From contig JAAZCN010000240.1 in assembly GCA_012513245.1 (NCBI GenBank), positions 1-8,233 of the forward strand: DNA of 8,233 nt, given 5' to 3'. Positions 1,907 to 8,233 of this stretch are shown in pieces. This DNA comes from Synergistaceae bacterium (GTDB lineage Bacteria > Synergistota > Synergistia > Synergistales > Synergistaceae). The notes under the pieces are model-generated. The model saw nothing but the letters and a program-made list of their open reading frames with translations, was not told where the DNA came from and did no database searches. A program made the position numbers and the translations under genes. Within the stretch, counting starts at the first letter, position 1. Every line of letters begins with the position of its first letter.

Positions 1907-4123
1907 ATGACTCTGTTCACACTTTACACTACGGCATTCTTAGTAATAGTGATTCTTTTCATTTTAGGTCTGTTATTTAGTACTGAGACACCTGAAAACC
2001 AAGACTATACTCTTGAAGAAAGCAAGGAATTAACTTCATCAGGTATGACGGGTGTCACTGAATATGTTGATGATCCGATAAAATCTATAACTGGAGAGAA
2101 AAAACGTTCTGATTCTGATTATGTTAAAAAAACTGTAGGGGCATTTGATAGGTTATTTTCTAAATGCCTTACGTCACAGGAGATATTTAAAAAATACACT
2201 CTTTCTGTTGTTCCTCAAGAAGTATTGAAATCAACCAATGTTGAATTTTTGCGTTTCTATCTCCAACATTATTCGAGATTTAAGAATTTCAGTTGGACTA
2301 GAGAACAAGTACGTAATTCACTTTCTGAGCAGATAAAGGTTGATGGTAATAAACTCAAGATGAGTTCTGATAAACCTCGTTACCAAAATCCATGTACAAC
2401 TCTGATAACTATACCTCCAGACAAAGTAAGTGAACCTGAGAACATAGACACCTTCGCAACATTCAATATTGCAGAAGACGAAGAAGTTAATGGAACGGAG
2501 CATACACCTCAGAAAATATTTTTTCGATCTTATGCCCATAAAAAGTATCTGAGTAAGAATCACCACGAACGTTTTAAAAAAATGCGGGCAGTTAAAGATC
2601 TTCAAAACAGGGAACTTTCCGTTGGTGGGATTAGCCTTTCTAGAATTGACGATGCAAGTTTGTTTGTTGCTCAAGCAAAATACATGCAAACTTTTGAGGA
2701 TGACTATACAGGTCATGCAGATTTTCAATGTTACTATCCGACCTATATGAAAATGGATGAAGAACAGCTTCGCACATACTTTACTTGGCGAGCCAAAGTG
2801 AGAAACGGACATGTTGAGGCAACAGACATTTCATATATATTTGTATATATCTACGAATTGCTGAATCTGATCGGTGTAGCATCTGCAGAAGAAGGGATGC
2901 GTCAGTTACTCGCGTTTTGGTCAAGCTATCGTGGTTACAATGATAAAATAGATCGCTATCTTGAAAGATGGATAAAAGATTTCTATGTACACTATAGACT
3001 CAGCTGCTTATATAAAAACATATTAGAGCAATTTCCTGATGGAATATTAGACAAAACTTCCGTACAAGAAGAAGTATACCGGCACAATTATAAAAATAAG
3101 GACACTTATCTGAACCTATTGTCTTCGCATAAATATCTGAAGAGTAATTTCTATGAAAGTGAATACGGATACACACTTATTGAATGTATTCCGTACGTTT
3201 TAGATCGTGTTGATTCTTATCTTGATGAACAAGGCATTTCATTCCCAACTCTCTTGCTGGGCAGCGTAGTAACAAAAGATTGGTGGTCTCCTTTTAATGA
3301 CGCTGTTGTTGATGTTAAAAATCCATCCGATACTGGTTATTCTGTGAAAATAAACTCTGTCGAAGAATATTCCTTTGCAGATGGCAGATGGCGGACAAAA
3401 CATCTTCAAACACACTATCATAATAAATTGCTTGGATATATTATAAAAACTACAGAAGCGGAATTGCGGGAATTAACAGGATATAAAAGGAAACTACAGC
3501 CCAGCATCGGTTCCATCACTTATGATGATATACAGAATAAGCAAGTATTAAGGATTATCAATCATACTGAGTTTACGGATATCATCCGTAGTGTCGTTAA
3601 GGCCCACTTTGCCAATAGTGGTATCCGTCCGCAGGTTTTTAAAATAATTACGCAAGATGTTGAAATACCAATAAAGCCTGTAGAAGAAGTCAAAGTTGAT
3701 TCTAATAAACTGGAAGCGATTCGTTCTGCTGCTACTGAGACTCAGGATCGCTTGCTGATTGATGGTAATGAAAAAGAGCAGATTCAAGCCGAAACAGAAG
3801 TTGCAATTATTGAAGAAATGCATACTATCTCTGCTTCTACTGAGACTGTACAATCAGAAGTCGTTTCACATGACGTAGAAAAAAGCACGCTCTCAAAACC
3901 GCAACACAGTTGTATCTCCATTATTATCAGTGGTCAAAACGTCAATTCCAGAATTGCAGAATTATCAATGGCGTATGGGACATTGCCAGAAGTGTTGATT
4001 GAAGGCATTAATGATTTGCTATTTGAAGTCATCGGAGATAATGTCATTGATTTTTCTGCAGATGTTCCTTCTATCTATGATGACTATCTGGATGATATTA
4101 AGAAACTAATTGAGGAGGACTGA
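1907..4123 (+). CDS. sngA: Membrane-anchored TerB_N/TerB_C protein, Shango SngA-like
   Basis: The 738-residue product has three parts. A hydrophobic segment at about residues 6-24 (YTTAFLVIVILFILGLL) has little charge before it and looks like an uncleaved membrane anchor. An acidic and basic linker with a poorly conserved region follows. A TerB_N domain covers about 240-460, with CYYPTYMKMDEEQLRTYFTW, the RxG turn and the ISYIFVYIYELLNLIGV helix. A TerB_C domain covers about 595-738, opening with VDSNKLEAIRS and ending with LPEVLIEGINDLLFEVIGD; it carries a low-complexity Glu/Thr/Ser insert around 620-665. I do not see a clear central TerB domain. TerB-type proteins belong to tellurite/stress and phage-defence systems; the biochemical role of this family is unknown. 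ATG 1907 is chosen because GGAG at 1895-1898 is 8 bases before it; GTG 1904 is the alternative. The ATPase gene starts 2 bp after its stop. Domain calls are firm; the system role rests on the neighbours. Confidence 0.85.
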   Translation: MTLFTLYTTAFLVIVILFILGLLFSTETPENQDYTLEESKELTSSGMTGVTEYVDDPIKSITGEKKRSDSDYVKKTVGAFDRLFSKCLTSQEIFKKYTLSVVPQEVLKSTNVEFLRFYLQHYSRFKNFSWTREQVRNSLSEQIKVDGNKLKMSSDKPRYQNPCTTLITIPPDKVSEPENIDTFATFNIAEDEEVNGTEHTPQKIFFRSYAHKKYLSKNHHERFKKMRAVKDLQNRELSVGGISLSRIDDASLFVAQAKYMQTFEDDYTGHADFQCYYPTYMKMDEEQLRTYFTWRAKVRNGHVEATDISYIFVYIYELLNLIGVASAEEGMRQLLAFWSSYRGYNDKIDRYLERWIKDFYVHYRLSCLYKNILEQFPDGILDKTSVQEEVYRHNYKNKDTYLNLLSSHKYLKSNFYESEYGYTLIECIPYVLDRVDSYLDEQGISFPTLLLGSVVTKDWWSPFNDAVVDVKNPSDTGYSVKINSVEEYSFADGRWRTKHLQTHYHNKLLGYIIKTTEAELRELTGYKRKLQPSIGSITYDDIQNKQVLRIINHTEFTDIIRSVVKAHFANSGIRPQVFKIITQDVEIPIKPVEEVKVDSNKLEAIRSAATETQDRLLIDGNEKEQIQAETEVAIIEEMHTISASTETVQSEVVSHDVEKSTLSKPQHSCISIIISGQNVNSRIAELSMAYGTLPEVLIEGINDLLFEVIGDNVIDFSADVPSIYDDYLDDIKKLIEED

Positions 4124-4125
4124 AT

Positions 4126-5451
4126 ATGGCGTTTACATTACCGCCCAAACGCATTGCAACTACCGTCATGAATTCTCTCAAGGGCGGTGTCGTGCCAAGA
4201 GATGGGCTTGAATATATCGCGGTTGGCCGTAAAAAAGAAATTGACGCAATATTACATGATGTAGAAATTATTGAAGATGGCGGAGCAGCATTTCGTTTTG
4301 TTGTTGGAAAATATGGCAGCGGCAAAAGCTTTTTGCTGCAAATCATTCGAAATTATGTAATGAAGCGCGGATTCGTCGTTGTCGATGCTGACCTTTCTCC
4401 TGAACGTCGATTAATAGGAGCAAACGGCAAAGGACTTGCAACATACAAAGAGCTTGTCCGTAATATGTCAACAAAGACACGTCCGGATGGTGGAGCTTTA
4501 TCGTTAATTCTTGAAAAATGGATTTCCAACATTCAAACACAACTTATGAGTACTGGCCTTTATGATATTGGGAGCGCGGAGCTCACTCGTGCAGTTACAA
4601 CAAAAATTTACGAAGTAATCAATGAAATTCAAGAGATGGTTCACGGGTTTGATTTTGCCAAGGTCATTTCATTGTACTGGGAAGCATATCGAGAAGGTAA
4701 TGATGATAAAAAGTCCAAAGTGTTAAAGTGGTTTCGAGGAGAATATACAACAAAAACAGAAGCGAGGCAAGAAATTGGCATTAATATTATTATAACGGAT
4801 GAAGACTGGTATGAGTATATAAAGATTCTGGCCTCCTTTATTGCCAGAGCTGGCTACAAAGGAATGTACATTCTTGTTGATGAACTGGTCAACCTTTACA
4901 ACCTTCCATCATCAGTAAGTCGACAAAACAATTATGAGAAAATGCTCACCATGTATAACGATACCATGCAGGGGAAGGCTCATCATATTGGTATTATCAT
5001 GAGCGGCACACCACAATGCATTGAGGATATGCGAAAAGGTGTGTTTAGCTATGAGGCACTCCGCTCCAGACTAGAAACTGGACGATTTTCTACAGAAACT
5101 ACAACAGATATGCTGGCTCCCATTCTCCGACTACAGCCGCTATCCTATGAAGAGATGACGGTACTAATAGAGAAACTGACATTGATCCACGCGGGTCTCT
5201 ATAACTATAAGTCTTCGATAACAACGGATGATCTTGTGTCTTTTCTAAAGGTTGAATATAGTCGTATTGGAACAGGCACAAATATCACACCCAGAGAGAT
5301 TATACGCGATTTTATTGAAGTGCTGAATATCTTAGTGCAAAATCCTTCTGTGACGATTCAATCGATCATAGGCGACGAAACGTTTTCGTTTGCAAAAGAT
5401 GAAACAAACAAGGAAGAAATAGATACAGAGTTTAAAGAGTTTGAATTATGA
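4126..5451 (+). CDS. sngB: BrxD-like (DUF2791) P-loop ATPase, Shango SngB-like
   Basis: This 441-residue protein belongs to the BrxD / DUF2791 family of AAA-like ATPases. Near the N-terminus are the family-typical GGVVPRDGLEYIAVGRKKEI and DGGAAFRFVVGKYGSGKSFL. The Walker A loop is GKYGSGKS (61-68). VVVDADLSPERRL follows at 84-96. Walker B is MYILVDEL (247-254, with Asp252 and Glu253), a sensor-1-like strand IIMSGTP lies at 290-296, and a YEALRSRL segment (309-316) carries possible arginine fingers. A helical C-terminal part includes TPREIIRDFIEVL (388-400), and the end is acidic. Length is normal for the family. It should bind and hydrolyse ATP, probably as a ring or clamp on DNA together with the helicase; this is inference from BREX and Shango relatives. 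SD GAGGAGG (4112-4118) lies 7 bases before the ATG, inside the end of sngA. Its stop overlaps the helicase start by 4 bp, so translation is likely coupled. Confidence 0.9.
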   Translation: MAFTLPPKRIATTVMNSLKGGVVPRDGLEYIAVGRKKEIDAILHDVEIIEDGGAAFRFVVGKYGSGKSFLLQIIRNYVMKRGFVVVDADLSPERRLIGANGKGLATYKELVRNMSTKTRPDGGALSLILEKWISNIQTQLMSTGLYDIGSAELTRAVTTKIYEVINEIQEMVHGFDFAKVISLYWEAYREGNDDKKSKVLKWFRGEYTTKTEARQEIGINIIITDEDWYEYIKILASFIARAGYKGMYILVDELVNLYNLPSSVSRQNNYEKMLTMYNDTMQGKAHHIGIIMSGTPQCIEDMRKGVFSYEALRSRLETGRFSTETTTDMLAPILRLQPLSYEEMTVLIEKLTLIHAGLYNYKSSITTDDLVSFLKVEYSRIGTGTNITPREIIRDFIEVLNILVQNPSVTIQSIIGDETFSFAKDETNKEEIDTEFKEFEL

Positions 5452-7613
5452 TTCAAACCGCTTATGAGCGACTTGCTCCTTTCAATCAAGAACACATATA
5501 TCGGCATAAATGGACTGAAATGAGGAGGGTCCAGGTGGCCGCGTGTGAAGTTATCTTCGACACAGAGGCGAATTTGTTGCTGTCTTCCGGGACTGCATCC
5601 GGAAAAACTGAAGCCGCTTTTCTTCCTGCCTTAACAGAGATATATAATAACCCAAGTTCGTCAGTAGCTATTCTGTATATAAGCCCATTAAAGGCACTAA
5701 TTAATGATCAATTTATTCGTCTTAATGAATTATGCGAAGATGCTCATATACCAGTGACTAAATGGCATGGCGATGTCAATCAAAACTTAAAAAACAAGCT
5801 GATTCAAAATCCTTCAGGGATCTTGCAAATAACCCCTGAATCGTTAGAAGCTATGTTGATGCGCCAATCTACAACGATAATAAGCCTTTTTTCTGATCTC
5901 CGATTTGTTATTATTGATGAAGTCCATCATTTTATGAGCAATAGCAGGGGGTGCCAGCTCCTTTGCATCCTGGAACGAATCCAACGTCTAACTAATACTA
6001 TTCCGCGTCGCATTGGCCTATCGGCTACTCTTGGGGAATACTCAACCGCTGAAAAATGGTTAAACAGCGGTACTGCGCGTAAATGCATTACCCCTGAGCT
6101 CTCTGTGCGTGGGCAAAAAATCGGTCTTTCGGTCAGATATCATCTTTTACCGCCCAATTCCAAAAACGAAGAAGACAATCAAAGAAATGAACGCCCGTAT
6201 TATTCGGACTTGTTTGAATTGACAAAAGGAAAGCGCTGTATTGTTTTTTCAAATTCAAAAGCAGAGGTCGAAGATAATATCGCCACGTTGAAACGAATTG
6301 CCAAAGAACAGAAGTATCCGGACATCTACCATGTCCACCATGGGAGCATATCTGCCACTCTGCGCGAAGATACCGAAAGGATTATGAAGGAAGGAGAACA
6401 AAATGTTGTAACCGGCGCTACGTTGACGCTTGAGCTAGGGATTGACCTCGGTGCAATGGAGAGAATCGTTCAGACGGGAGCCCAGTTTTCTGTGTCAAGT
6501 TTTGTGCAGCGGCTTGGTAGAAGTGGGCGTCGTGACGGACAATCTGAAATGGCGTTTCTATTTCGTGAATATAGGGATGATAAAGGAAAAGAGTTTTTCA
6601 ATGAAATTAACTGGTCATTTATTAGAACAATCGCAATTATTCAGCTTTATTTGGAAGAACATTGGATCGAGCCCATTGACCAGAATACACTACCATATGG
6701 CCTTGTTTACCATCAAACGATGAGTTATCTGTTTTCCTCTGGCGCAACAAGTCCAGCGGTTTTAGCGCAAAACATACTCAAACTATCGCCCTTTCACAAC
6801 GTCTCTCAAAACGACTACAAGGAAATTCTGCGCTATTTGATTGCAAAGCATCAATTGGAGCGAATGGAAAACGGCGATATATTGATCGGGCTGGAGGGCG
6901 AAAAACTTACGAATCACTTTGACTTCTATGCAGTGTTTGAATCATCCATTGAGTTTACGGTAAAATATGGGGCCCAAAAAATTGGATCAGTCAGCACCGC
7001 TTTTCCCGTCGGTTTTCGCTTTGCACTGGCTGGTCTAACATGGCAGGTTATTGAAGTAGACCATGAGAGGCAAAACATTTACGTTGAACCAGTAAAAGGC
7101 ATTTCACGAAATCAATGGTGTGGTCTGTTCCCGGTACTTTTAAACACAAAAATCATGAAAAAAATGCAGGAGGTTTTGATCTCTGATAAACAATATAGCT
7201 ATTTAAGTAAAACGGCTACTGAACGGCTCCACGATTTTCGAGTGATAGCGAGGAAAGCTGGAGTGCTGGAGCATCTTGCCGTAAATACAGCGCCAGATCA
7301 AATAGCGCTATTCCCATGGATAGGGACAAAAGCGCTTATTGCATTATCATACGTTCTTCAGCAGAAAGGATATCAGAACCGCATCGATAGCGAGGTTATG
7401 CTTGAAGTTTTTGGTTGCTACGATGCAAACAAACTTATAAATGTACTTCTTGCACTCAAAGATGAAGCTCTTGATAAGAACACCTTTTCTGTCCCTGATG
7501 ATGTGCGACCACTTATGCAGGGTAAATTTAATAGGCATATTCCTCCGGAAATTCTACGTAAAGAGTACATTGCAGACTATATTGATGTAGAGGATATGAA
7601 AGCTTCTTTATGA
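5448..7613 (+). CDS. sngC: Lhr/BrxHI-like superfamily 2 DEAD/DEAH-type helicase, Shango SngC-like
   Basis: The 721-residue product has a complete set of superfamily 2 helicase motifs. Motif I is GTASGKT (48-54), Ia is ISPLKALINDQ (78-88), Ib is TPESLEAML (129-137), II is DEVH (157-160) and III is SAT (192-194). The second RecA lobe has CIVFSNSKAEVE (264-275), motif V ATLTLELGIDLG (324-335) and motif VI QRLGRSGRR (354-362). The remaining 350 residues look like the Lhr-type C-terminal region: winged-helix and beta-rich parts, then LFPWIGTKAL and KFNRHIPPEILRKEY near the end. No nuclease motif is visible. It should move on or unwind nucleic acid with ATP. The start overlaps the ATPase stop as ATGA, with a weak SD AAAGAG 8 bases upstream, so it depends on translational coupling. 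Similar helicases (BrxHI) occur in some BREX types, but no brxC, pglX or pglZ is nearby here, so Shango fits better. Confidence 0.9.
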   Translation: MIQTAYERLAPFNQEHIYRHKWTEMRRVQVAACEVIFDTEANLLLSSGTASGKTEAAFLPALTEIYNNPSSSVAILYISPLKALINDQFIRLNELCEDAHIPVTKWHGDVNQNLKNKLIQNPSGILQITPESLEAMLMRQSTTIISLFSDLRFVIIDEVHHFMSNSRGCQLLCILERIQRLTNTIPRRIGLSATLGEYSTAEKWLNSGTARKCITPELSVRGQKIGLSVRYHLLPPNSKNEEDNQRNERPYYSDLFELTKGKRCIVFSNSKAEVEDNIATLKRIAKEQKYPDIYHVHHGSISATLREDTERIMKEGEQNVVTGATLTLELGIDLGAMERIVQTGAQFSVSSFVQRLGRSGRRDGQSEMAFLFREYRDDKGKEFFNEINWSFIRTIAIIQLYLEEHWIEPIDQNTLPYGLVYHQTMSYLFSSGATSPAVLAQNILKLSPFHNVSQNDYKEILRYLIAKHQLERMENGDILIGLEGEKLTNHFDFYAVFESSIEFTVKYGAQKIGSVSTAFPVGFRFALAGLTWQVIEVDHERQNIYVEPVKGISRNQWCGLFPVLLNTKIMKKMQEVLISDKQYSYLSKTATERLHDFRVIARKAGVLEHLAVNTAPDQIALFPWIGTKALIALSYVLQQKGYQNRIDSEVMLEVFGCYDANKLINVLLALKDEALDKNTFSVPDDVRPLMQGKFNRHIPPEILRKEYIADYIDVEDMKASL

Positions 7614-7905
7614 CATGAACATGACCGTGGAAGGACCAGAGGGATCAGACTTACACAATTGACAGAATATCCACCAACTCCAGAAATACCTCTGTTGATA
7701 ACAGGAGACCGGCAAAGCTTGCAAAAAGCTTCAGCTAGGTAAGACATACATAATTCATAAATCGATAATTCCCCGGATATCTTCAACTTTTTTCCCAGTT
7801 GATCTTCGATTTTCATAGCCGCTTCAAATCTTATGCTTGGCTGGGTAACACCAGAATCCGACGGAAGGGAAAAATCCTTTAGCTCCTTCAGCTTAGCCCC
7901 GCTGA
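7614..7905. other. Convergent gap between the helicase gene and mcrC, possible junction scar
   Basis: No gene is convincing here. On the - strand a 79-codon frame (7577-7816) starts at an ATG with only a weak GAAG upstream and runs 37 bp into the helicase gene. Its frame stays open upstream into the 3' end of mcrC, and its first 40 residues (MKIEDQLGKKLKISGEL...) look protein-like, so it may be the stump of a lost gene. On the + strand, the frame of the helicase gene stays open for 42 codons after its TGA and ends ITGDRQSLQKASAR. Weak hairpins occur at 7691-7705 (CTGTT with AACAG) and 7715-7731 (two AAGCTT copies), neither with a T-run, so no clear terminator is seen. Confidence 0.35.
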
Positions 7906-8233
7906 CTATACAACATCTTTTGAAGAAGACAAAAAAGCATCAGAAACTTCGGTCAATAACTTGGAAATGCTATCGTCTGTATTCCTGAGATCAATAAAAA
8001 ACACATTGACCTGAACGTTATCGTGGGAGGTGTATCTGATATCTGTTTTACTTACATCTTCTGTGTAAGGATATACTAAAATAATGCTATCAGCCTCATA
8101 TTTTTTAGAATATGCATACATCTGGTACATGTCAGATTGTGAAATACCTCTGTTTCGATAATTGTCTGAAAGGATTTTCCATTTAGTGTCCAGAACAACT
8201 GTATGCCCACCGAATTCCAATACAATGTCGGGA
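7906..8233 (-). CDS. mcrC: McrC, C-terminal nuclease half (5' end outside the window)
   Basis: The - strand frame is open to the right edge, so the gene continues beyond it; the TTG at 8220 is an internal codon. The 108 visible residues begin PDIVLEFGGHTVVLDTKWK, which is the PD-(D/E)xK nuclease core of McrC: Asp of PD, then Asp and Lys of DTK. Next comes the family-typical GISQSDMYQMYAYSKKY, then IILVYPY and a VFFIDLR strand before the TAG stop. McrC is the cleaving partner of the GTPase McrB in modification-dependent restriction, which cuts DNA carrying modified cytosines. McrC is usually about 350-450 residues, so roughly the last quarter to third is present and it ends at a natural position. 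mcrB would be expected upstream of it, beyond the right edge. The gene converges on the helicase gene, so it forms a separate transcription unit. Catalytic residues are intact in this part. Confidence 0.9.
   Translation of the reverse strand, partial: PDIVLEFGGHTVVLDTKWKILSDNYRNRGISQSDMYQMYAYSKKYEADSIILVYPYTEDVSKTDIRYTSHDNVQVNVFFIDLRNTDDSISKLLTEVSDAFLSSSKDVV

Follow-up and report, generated by a model that had tools for sequence, protein, structure and literature searches.

An 8,233-nucleotide stretch of DNA from a Synergistaceae bacterium (assembly GCA_012513245.1, contig JAAZCN010000240.1), referred to below as the window, carries at positions 1907-7613 three genes that, judged by their sequences, almost certainly constitute a complete gene set of the anti-phage system Shango and not a BREX system. 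The first protein, SngA, begins with a predicted membrane anchor. What the analysis adds to the identification of Shango is that SngA is a predicted membrane protein in a good part of the loci compared, by way of several kinds of anchor. The three genes are as follows.

1907-4123, + strand: sngA, a TerB_N/TerB_C protein of 738 residues with a predicted N-terminal membrane anchor (PADLOC SngA, Pfam)
4126-5451, + strand: sngB, an AAA+ ATPase of the BrxC/BrxD family, 441 residues (PADLOC SngB, Pfam BrxC_BrxD, Walker A and B motifs)
5448-7613, + strand: sngC, a DEAD/DEAH helicase of superfamily 2, 721 residues (PADLOC SngC, helicase motifs)

The ATG at 1907 gives the 738-residue SngA, and a GTG at 1904 provides an alternative start. 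A gap of 2 nucleotides separates sngA from sngB, the sngB and sngC genes overlap by 4 nucleotides, and all three frames are open, in keeping with the coupled packing of intact genes suggested previously. Purine-rich, ribosome-binding-like stretches lie upstream of sngA and sngB. A promoter scan 5' of sngA was near chance, with 5 sites versus a mean of 3.3 (standard deviation 1.9).

An earlier, sequence-only reading of the window had called this a Shango-type operon, and indeed each protein scores best against its own PADLOC Shango profile. For SngA, that profile aligns with residues 130-736 at 243.9 bits (E 1.5e-72) and is the sole PADLOC match at E 0.01. The SngB profile reaches 613 bits versus 158.8 for BrxD, and the SngC profile 758.2 bits versus 439 for BrxHI, both BREX families thus lying well below. 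Given best E-values of 1.5e-72 to 3e-228 for the three proteins, a chance match is ruled out. None of them scores better against another system, such as BREX, and the Shango reading therefore stands.

The domains and motifs that had been listed for the three proteins are likewise present. SngA contains both TerB_N (residues 241-377, 109.5 bits, Pfam cut-off 25) and TerB_C (residues 593-732, 58.2 bits, cut-off 26.3). SngB, described as a BrxD-like ATPase, matches BrxC_BrxD at 550.8 bits (cut-off 22.2), and both of its Walker motifs, A at residue 61 (GKYGSGKS) and B at residue 248 (YILVDE), are intact. SngC matches DEAD at 104.6 bits (cut-off 26) and Helicase_C at 58.8 bits (cut-off 23.5). In this protein, described as an Lhr/BrxHI-like helicase, the motif set is complete, with motif I at 48 (GTASGKT), Ia at 80, II (DEVH) at 157, III (SAT) at 192, V (TLELGID) at 327, and VI (QRLGRSGR) at 354. 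No nuclease domain was recognized in SngC in the Pfam scan.

Type 2 BREX (Pgl) possesses an ATPase and a helicase homologous to SngB and SngC, and the operon could in principle be a relic or a part of BREX. This is exceedingly improbable. BREX profile scores are far lower than those of Shango, SngB obtains 160.1 bits against the NCBIfam BrxD equivalog, below the cut-off of 350, and SngA occupies the place of the modification, PglZ, and PglW parts. Neither BrxC, PglX, PglZ, PglW, nor any other BREX gene was found among the six window open reading frames scanned, the flanks being short (1.9 kb and 0.6 kb). The PADLOC scores together with the NCBIfam cut-off led to the rejection of a BREX assignment.

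The N-terminal helix of SngA and the end of its C-terminal domain occupy the following positions.

1907-1978, + strand: SngA residues 1-24, predicted to form a transmembrane helix (hydropathy; AlphaFold2 helix 4-23)
3875-4120, + strand: C-terminal part of TerB_C, SngA residues 657-738, with a weak winged-helix resemblance

The N-terminal helix, which the earlier reading had not mentioned, has a mean hydropathy of 2.73 over 19 residues, a value reached within the first 40 residues by none of 10,000 shuffles. In the control proteins, hydropathy exceeds 1.6 in the first 80 residues of 0 of 63 SngB and 0 of 61 SngC; elsewhere in the chain, 8 of 63 SngB and 6 of 61 SngC do so, including the window SngC (1.66), with a maximum of 1.86. 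Hydropathies of ∼1.6-1.9 are thus weak when taken alone. The AlphaFold2 model of SngA (65 sequences) has a mean predicted local distance difference test score (pLDDT) of 80 and a predicted template modeling score (pTM) of 0.55. As modeled, the chain proceeds from a helix (residues 4-23) through a disordered linker to a helical domain (∼69-152), after which come the TerB_N region, a small section of beta structure, and TerB_C. Neither of two SngA models had a Foldseek match at E 0.001 among the folds listed in that search. The Protein Data Bank (PDB) sequences retrieved for SngA were two Mre11 chains, matched weakly (E 0.036); for SngB there was no PDB match at 0.01, and PHROGs yielded nothing for either protein.

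The operon shares with Shango of Pseudomonas aeruginosa PA14 and Escherichia coli the TerB-type, ATPase, and helicase genes, their order, and the matching profiles. It differs in that the anchor helix and most of the 69-152 segment fall outside the SngA profile, which aligns from residue 130, and in that SngB is 37-51% identical to its plasmid homologues (40 listed of 692). In addition, the core TerB domain PF05099, which is named for Shango in excerpts of a domain review (PMC10952713), has no match in SngA at E 0.1.

A genome scan with SngB provided 22 loci at 53-65% identity, mostly from Bacillota, along with one Dehalococcoidales contig, one Tenericutes, and one spirochaete (Pleomorphochaeta). 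In these loci SngC is 39-54% and SngA 22-31% identical to the window proteins, and the best relatives show 64-65% (SngB), 54% (SngC), and ∼31% (SngA) identity. By this measure SngA is the least conserved of the three proteins. SngB relatives occur in 692 plasmid records, all below 60% identity, and the A-B-C order recurs in plasmid records with annotation, among them L023, L026, and L034. Phage records and viral contigs contained no SngB relatives, the 14 pattern matches in viral contigs including none. Rfam at gathering scores returned nothing. No near match was found among 72,556 plasmid records or 20,395 E. coli records, and the operon may fairly be called a new sequence variant, as had been claimed.

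At E 0.001, 784 homologues of SngA were obtained, and 14 of the 120 listed have an N-terminal hydrophobic segment. Seven of those listed (P0001-P0007), drawn from the sources "lgn" and "ena", reach 48-63% local identity (45-61% overall) and display another kind of anchor, a helix pair, together with an extra domain that is possibly PH-like. These seven are longer than the window SngA by ∼240-400 residues, mainly at the N-terminus, and a truncated sngA gene was considered on that account. A tblastn search with P0001-P0007 against positions 1189-1903 gave no match better than E 1, and P0008-P0011 each have one N-terminal hydrophobic segment, as in the window. The window SngA is therefore regarded as a different architecture and not a broken one.

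Several SngA homologues depart from the common form. P0014, P0043, P0064, P0094, P0098, P0102, and P0110, with 843-962 residues, have a radical SAM domain (PF04055) fused to TerB_N and TerB_C and perhaps represent a different TerB family. In L001:3481-6177 and in P0008-P0012, the window TerB_N region is matched twice, as if by tandem duplication. Unusually large SngA proteins, sized by their longest frames, occur in L073 (1431 residues), L074 (1230), and L027 (1053); they have long N-terminal extensions, and no anchor was recognized.

The recurrence of the anchor was surveyed at 66 SngB places, namely the 22 genome-scan loci, 12 plasmid loci hand-chosen for spread from the 40 listed, 31 of the 33 places in two phylum samples (the remaining two were already among the 22), and the window. 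The eleven dropped were L007, L012, L085, L095, and L098, in which a complete SngA frame reaching 200 residues was not found; L004, a duplicate; L017, with a short SngA-like frame; L032, without a TerB gene directly upstream; L089, with a short upstream frame of 329 residues; and L090 and L091, taken for BrxD on their low SngB scores (142 and 126 bits) and not on a BrxD profile. All 55 kept SngA proteins carry TerB_C and 52 carry TerB_N. That a TerB_C protein precedes SngB throughout the kept loci (none was recognized directly upstream in the dropped L032 and L089) is a further argument against a BREX origin. PF05099 was detected at E 0.001 in 10 of the 55 loci, 7 of the 18 anchored and 3 of the 37 others. 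Since so few carry it, Shango is defined here by its profiles without a requirement for PF05099.

An N-terminal anchor is predicted in 18 of the 55 loci, including loci from Aeromonas, Pseudoalteromonas, Cetobacterium, Pantoea, and the archaeon Natrinema, and none was recognized in the remaining 37. Because the sample is non-random, these counts do not constitute a frequency estimate. Three of the 18 anchored SngA proteins match the TM2 family (in our reading of the sequences, L033, L084, and L088), and the remaining anchors are hydrophobic helices. Four of the anchored loci, L028, L030, L084, and L088, have hydropathies of 1.59-1.89. Of these, L084 and L088 (not above 1.6 in the survey) were counted as anchored because their N-termini resemble TM2 domains, and L030 is anchored by its longest frame only, its annotated start lying past the helices. 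The status of L025 and L031 is uncertain. Outside the 55 loci, an anchor-like helix (hydropathy 2.07) opens an SngA from E. coli strain A33 too, a likeness between the window and this E. coli protein.

On a quick SngB tree, with L090 and L091 as the outgroup, the anchor label requires seven changes, at least four of which are forced. On a more carefully built tree, which has 55 rows and omits L090 and L091, and in which 17 rows were labeled anchored and 35 not, with three uncertain rows unlabeled, the label requires five changes, all five forced by starred branches. The tree tool warned of long end branches for L097, L030, L022, L096, L028, and L033, and L096 and L097 join directly. Gain of an anchor is, on the SngB tree, indistinguishable from loss. 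The SngB clade of the window consists mostly of Bacillota loci. Within it, the window forms a group with two anchor-free loci, L001 and L022 (support 99/95); its pairing with L001 alone is weak (88/49).

The absence of a recognized anchor in 37 of the 55 kept SngA proteins, including these two tree partners, would suit an incidental N-terminal helix in a cytosolic system that resembles the type 2 BREX pair BrxD-BrxHI and in which SngA would be a soluble sensor of DNA or protein. We consider this unlikely, though it deserves real weight. Predicted anchors recur and differ in kind, and the seven closest SngA homologues retain one in another form. This recurrence suggests that the anchored versions of Shango work at the cell membrane.

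On balance, and by a narrow measure, we lean toward a Shango anti-phage operon in which SngA tethers a loader and a helicase at the membrane. SngA would sit in the cytoplasmic membrane as an adaptor by means of its N-terminal helix, with the TerB_N/TerB_C body, and a possible DNA-binding part at the C-terminus, in the cytoplasm. It would serve as the recognition and positioning component that holds or signals to SngB. The latter, an ORC/Cdc6-type AAA+ ATPase, would load or activate SngC on phage DNA near the inner membrane, the site at which phage DNA arrives, and SngC, a BrxHI/Lhr-like helicase, would disturb that DNA before or during its replication. No nuclease domain was recognized, and the end step may be unwinding, a replication block, or the calling of a host nuclease. 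Of this scheme, the identity of the genes, their intact motifs, the operon packing, the predicted anchor, and its recurrence in relatives are observed; the membrane location and topology, the contact of SngA with SngB, the loading of the helicase, DNA as the target, and the anti-phage activity of the operon are inferred. A bolder proposal, offered tentatively and at less than even confidence, is that many Shango systems are membrane-tethered, SngA having repeatedly gained or lost unrelated anchors (a single helix, a pair of helices plus a domain that may be PH-like, or a TM2 domain) that place the loader and helicase at the inner membrane and allow phage DNA to be caught at or near entry.

The loading step has a counterpart in type 2 BREX, where, according to excerpts of a 2026 survey, BrxD and BrxHI form a tightly linked dyad, BrxD may load or activate BrxHI, and its action is likened to replicative helicase loading (PMC12839542); the main text of that survey does not mention TerB. 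A helicase tree, as given in part of another paper, groups SngC with BrxHI, DruE, and DpdJ (PMC12278908). This placing of SngC and BrxHI is disputed, since BrxHI is called Ski2-like in the excerpts of PMC12839542. SngC does match the DpdJ (106 bits) and DruE (73 bits) PADLOC profiles, and DruE is described, in the portion of its report available, as engaging 3'-tailed DNA (PMC13192584). The window SngC differs from these Druantia and Dpd proteins in being much shorter, at 721 residues, and in having no recognized nuclease domain.

Zorya combines membrane proteins with a helicase. Its likeness to the operon is in manner of working only, and no Zorya profile is among the PADLOC matches of SngA or SngB (the listing for SngC covered its best 25 families out of 57). 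Other defense systems kill by way of the membrane. SngA might in this manner be a membrane effector, with phage sensed by SngB and SngC, the membrane damaged by the SngA N-terminus, and growth of the infected cell stopped (abortive infection). A membrane segment in a defense protein next to an ATPase and a helicase is what such a scheme would call for, yet the segment is a single short helix, no pore domain was recognized, and many Shango systems have no helix. We regard an effector role as improbable and favor the tethering role for SngA.

On either side of the operon lie the following features.

1-228, + strand: a second tyrosine recombinase, C-terminal part only, running off the window (Pfam Phage_integrase, 3e-14)
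250-1188, + strand: compact tyrosine-recombinase-like protein of 312 residues (Pfam Phage_int_M and Phage_integrase; conserved family)
1247-1290, no strand assigned: 17-bp inverted repeat 3' of the integrase gene, 94% complementary, absent from the terminator-scan list and possibly a transcription stop
7906-8232, - strand: C-terminal part of mcrC (type IV restriction), running off the window (Pfam McrBC, 1.1e-16, matched over positions 260-318 of the 318 in the profile)

The setting is possibly a Synergistaceae defense island. Lhr-like helicases act in DNA repair, and SngC also matches NCBIfam profiles for ligase-associated DEXH and other ATP-dependent helicases, as might be expected of a housekeeping operon for DNA repair or stress. 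Such a function is nevertheless very improbable in view of the mcrC and recombinase neighbors and the patchy distribution of SngB, which at E 1e-60 was found in 25 of the 398 genomes sampled from one phylum and in 8 of the 296 from a second, some of these matches being low-scoring and maybe BrxD. Moreover, the anti-phage activity of Shango is published: in the excerpts of PMC10250203, which cover plating and liquid protection experiments, PA14 Shango altered the plating of many, but not all, of the phages tested by 10-100 fold.

The 312-residue recombinase belongs to a family that lacks the arm-type N-terminal domain. Its best 38 homologues, which include partial ones, show 55-95% identity. 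Two homologues, at 84% and 72% identity, are named Synergistaceae bacterium, a pointer to a possible Synergistaceae host from a gene that may be mobile. In an alignment of 14 sequences, phenylalanine replaces the residue that we take to be the HxxR-box histidine in the compact recombinases, and the presumed tyrosine column is mostly kept (phenylalanine in P0150 and P0153). The gene begins 21 nucleotides past the second recombinase gene, and its product is possibly a partner or regulator of that enzyme. Between sngC and mcrC, the frames at 7577-7939 on the - strand, one of which (79 residues) overlaps the end of sngC, gave no Pfam match at E 1 and are possibly a remnant gene.

A membrane-anchored SngA was not found in the literature searched, although an earlier mention is possible in Millman 2022 or Anantharaman 2012. 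Likewise, no paper combining Shango, transmembrane, and TerB was found, the original 2022 description lying outside the search. In the main text of PMC10250203 the word "transmembrane" does not occur, and "membrane" appears solely in a sentence on gasdermin. A 2026 review, in the part available, lists Shango among the systems of unknown mechanism (PMC12926258). The recurring predicted anchor of SngA thus represents a concrete, testable lead on that mechanism, and the anchored and anchor-free forms divide Shango into two groups that can be compared inside one system.
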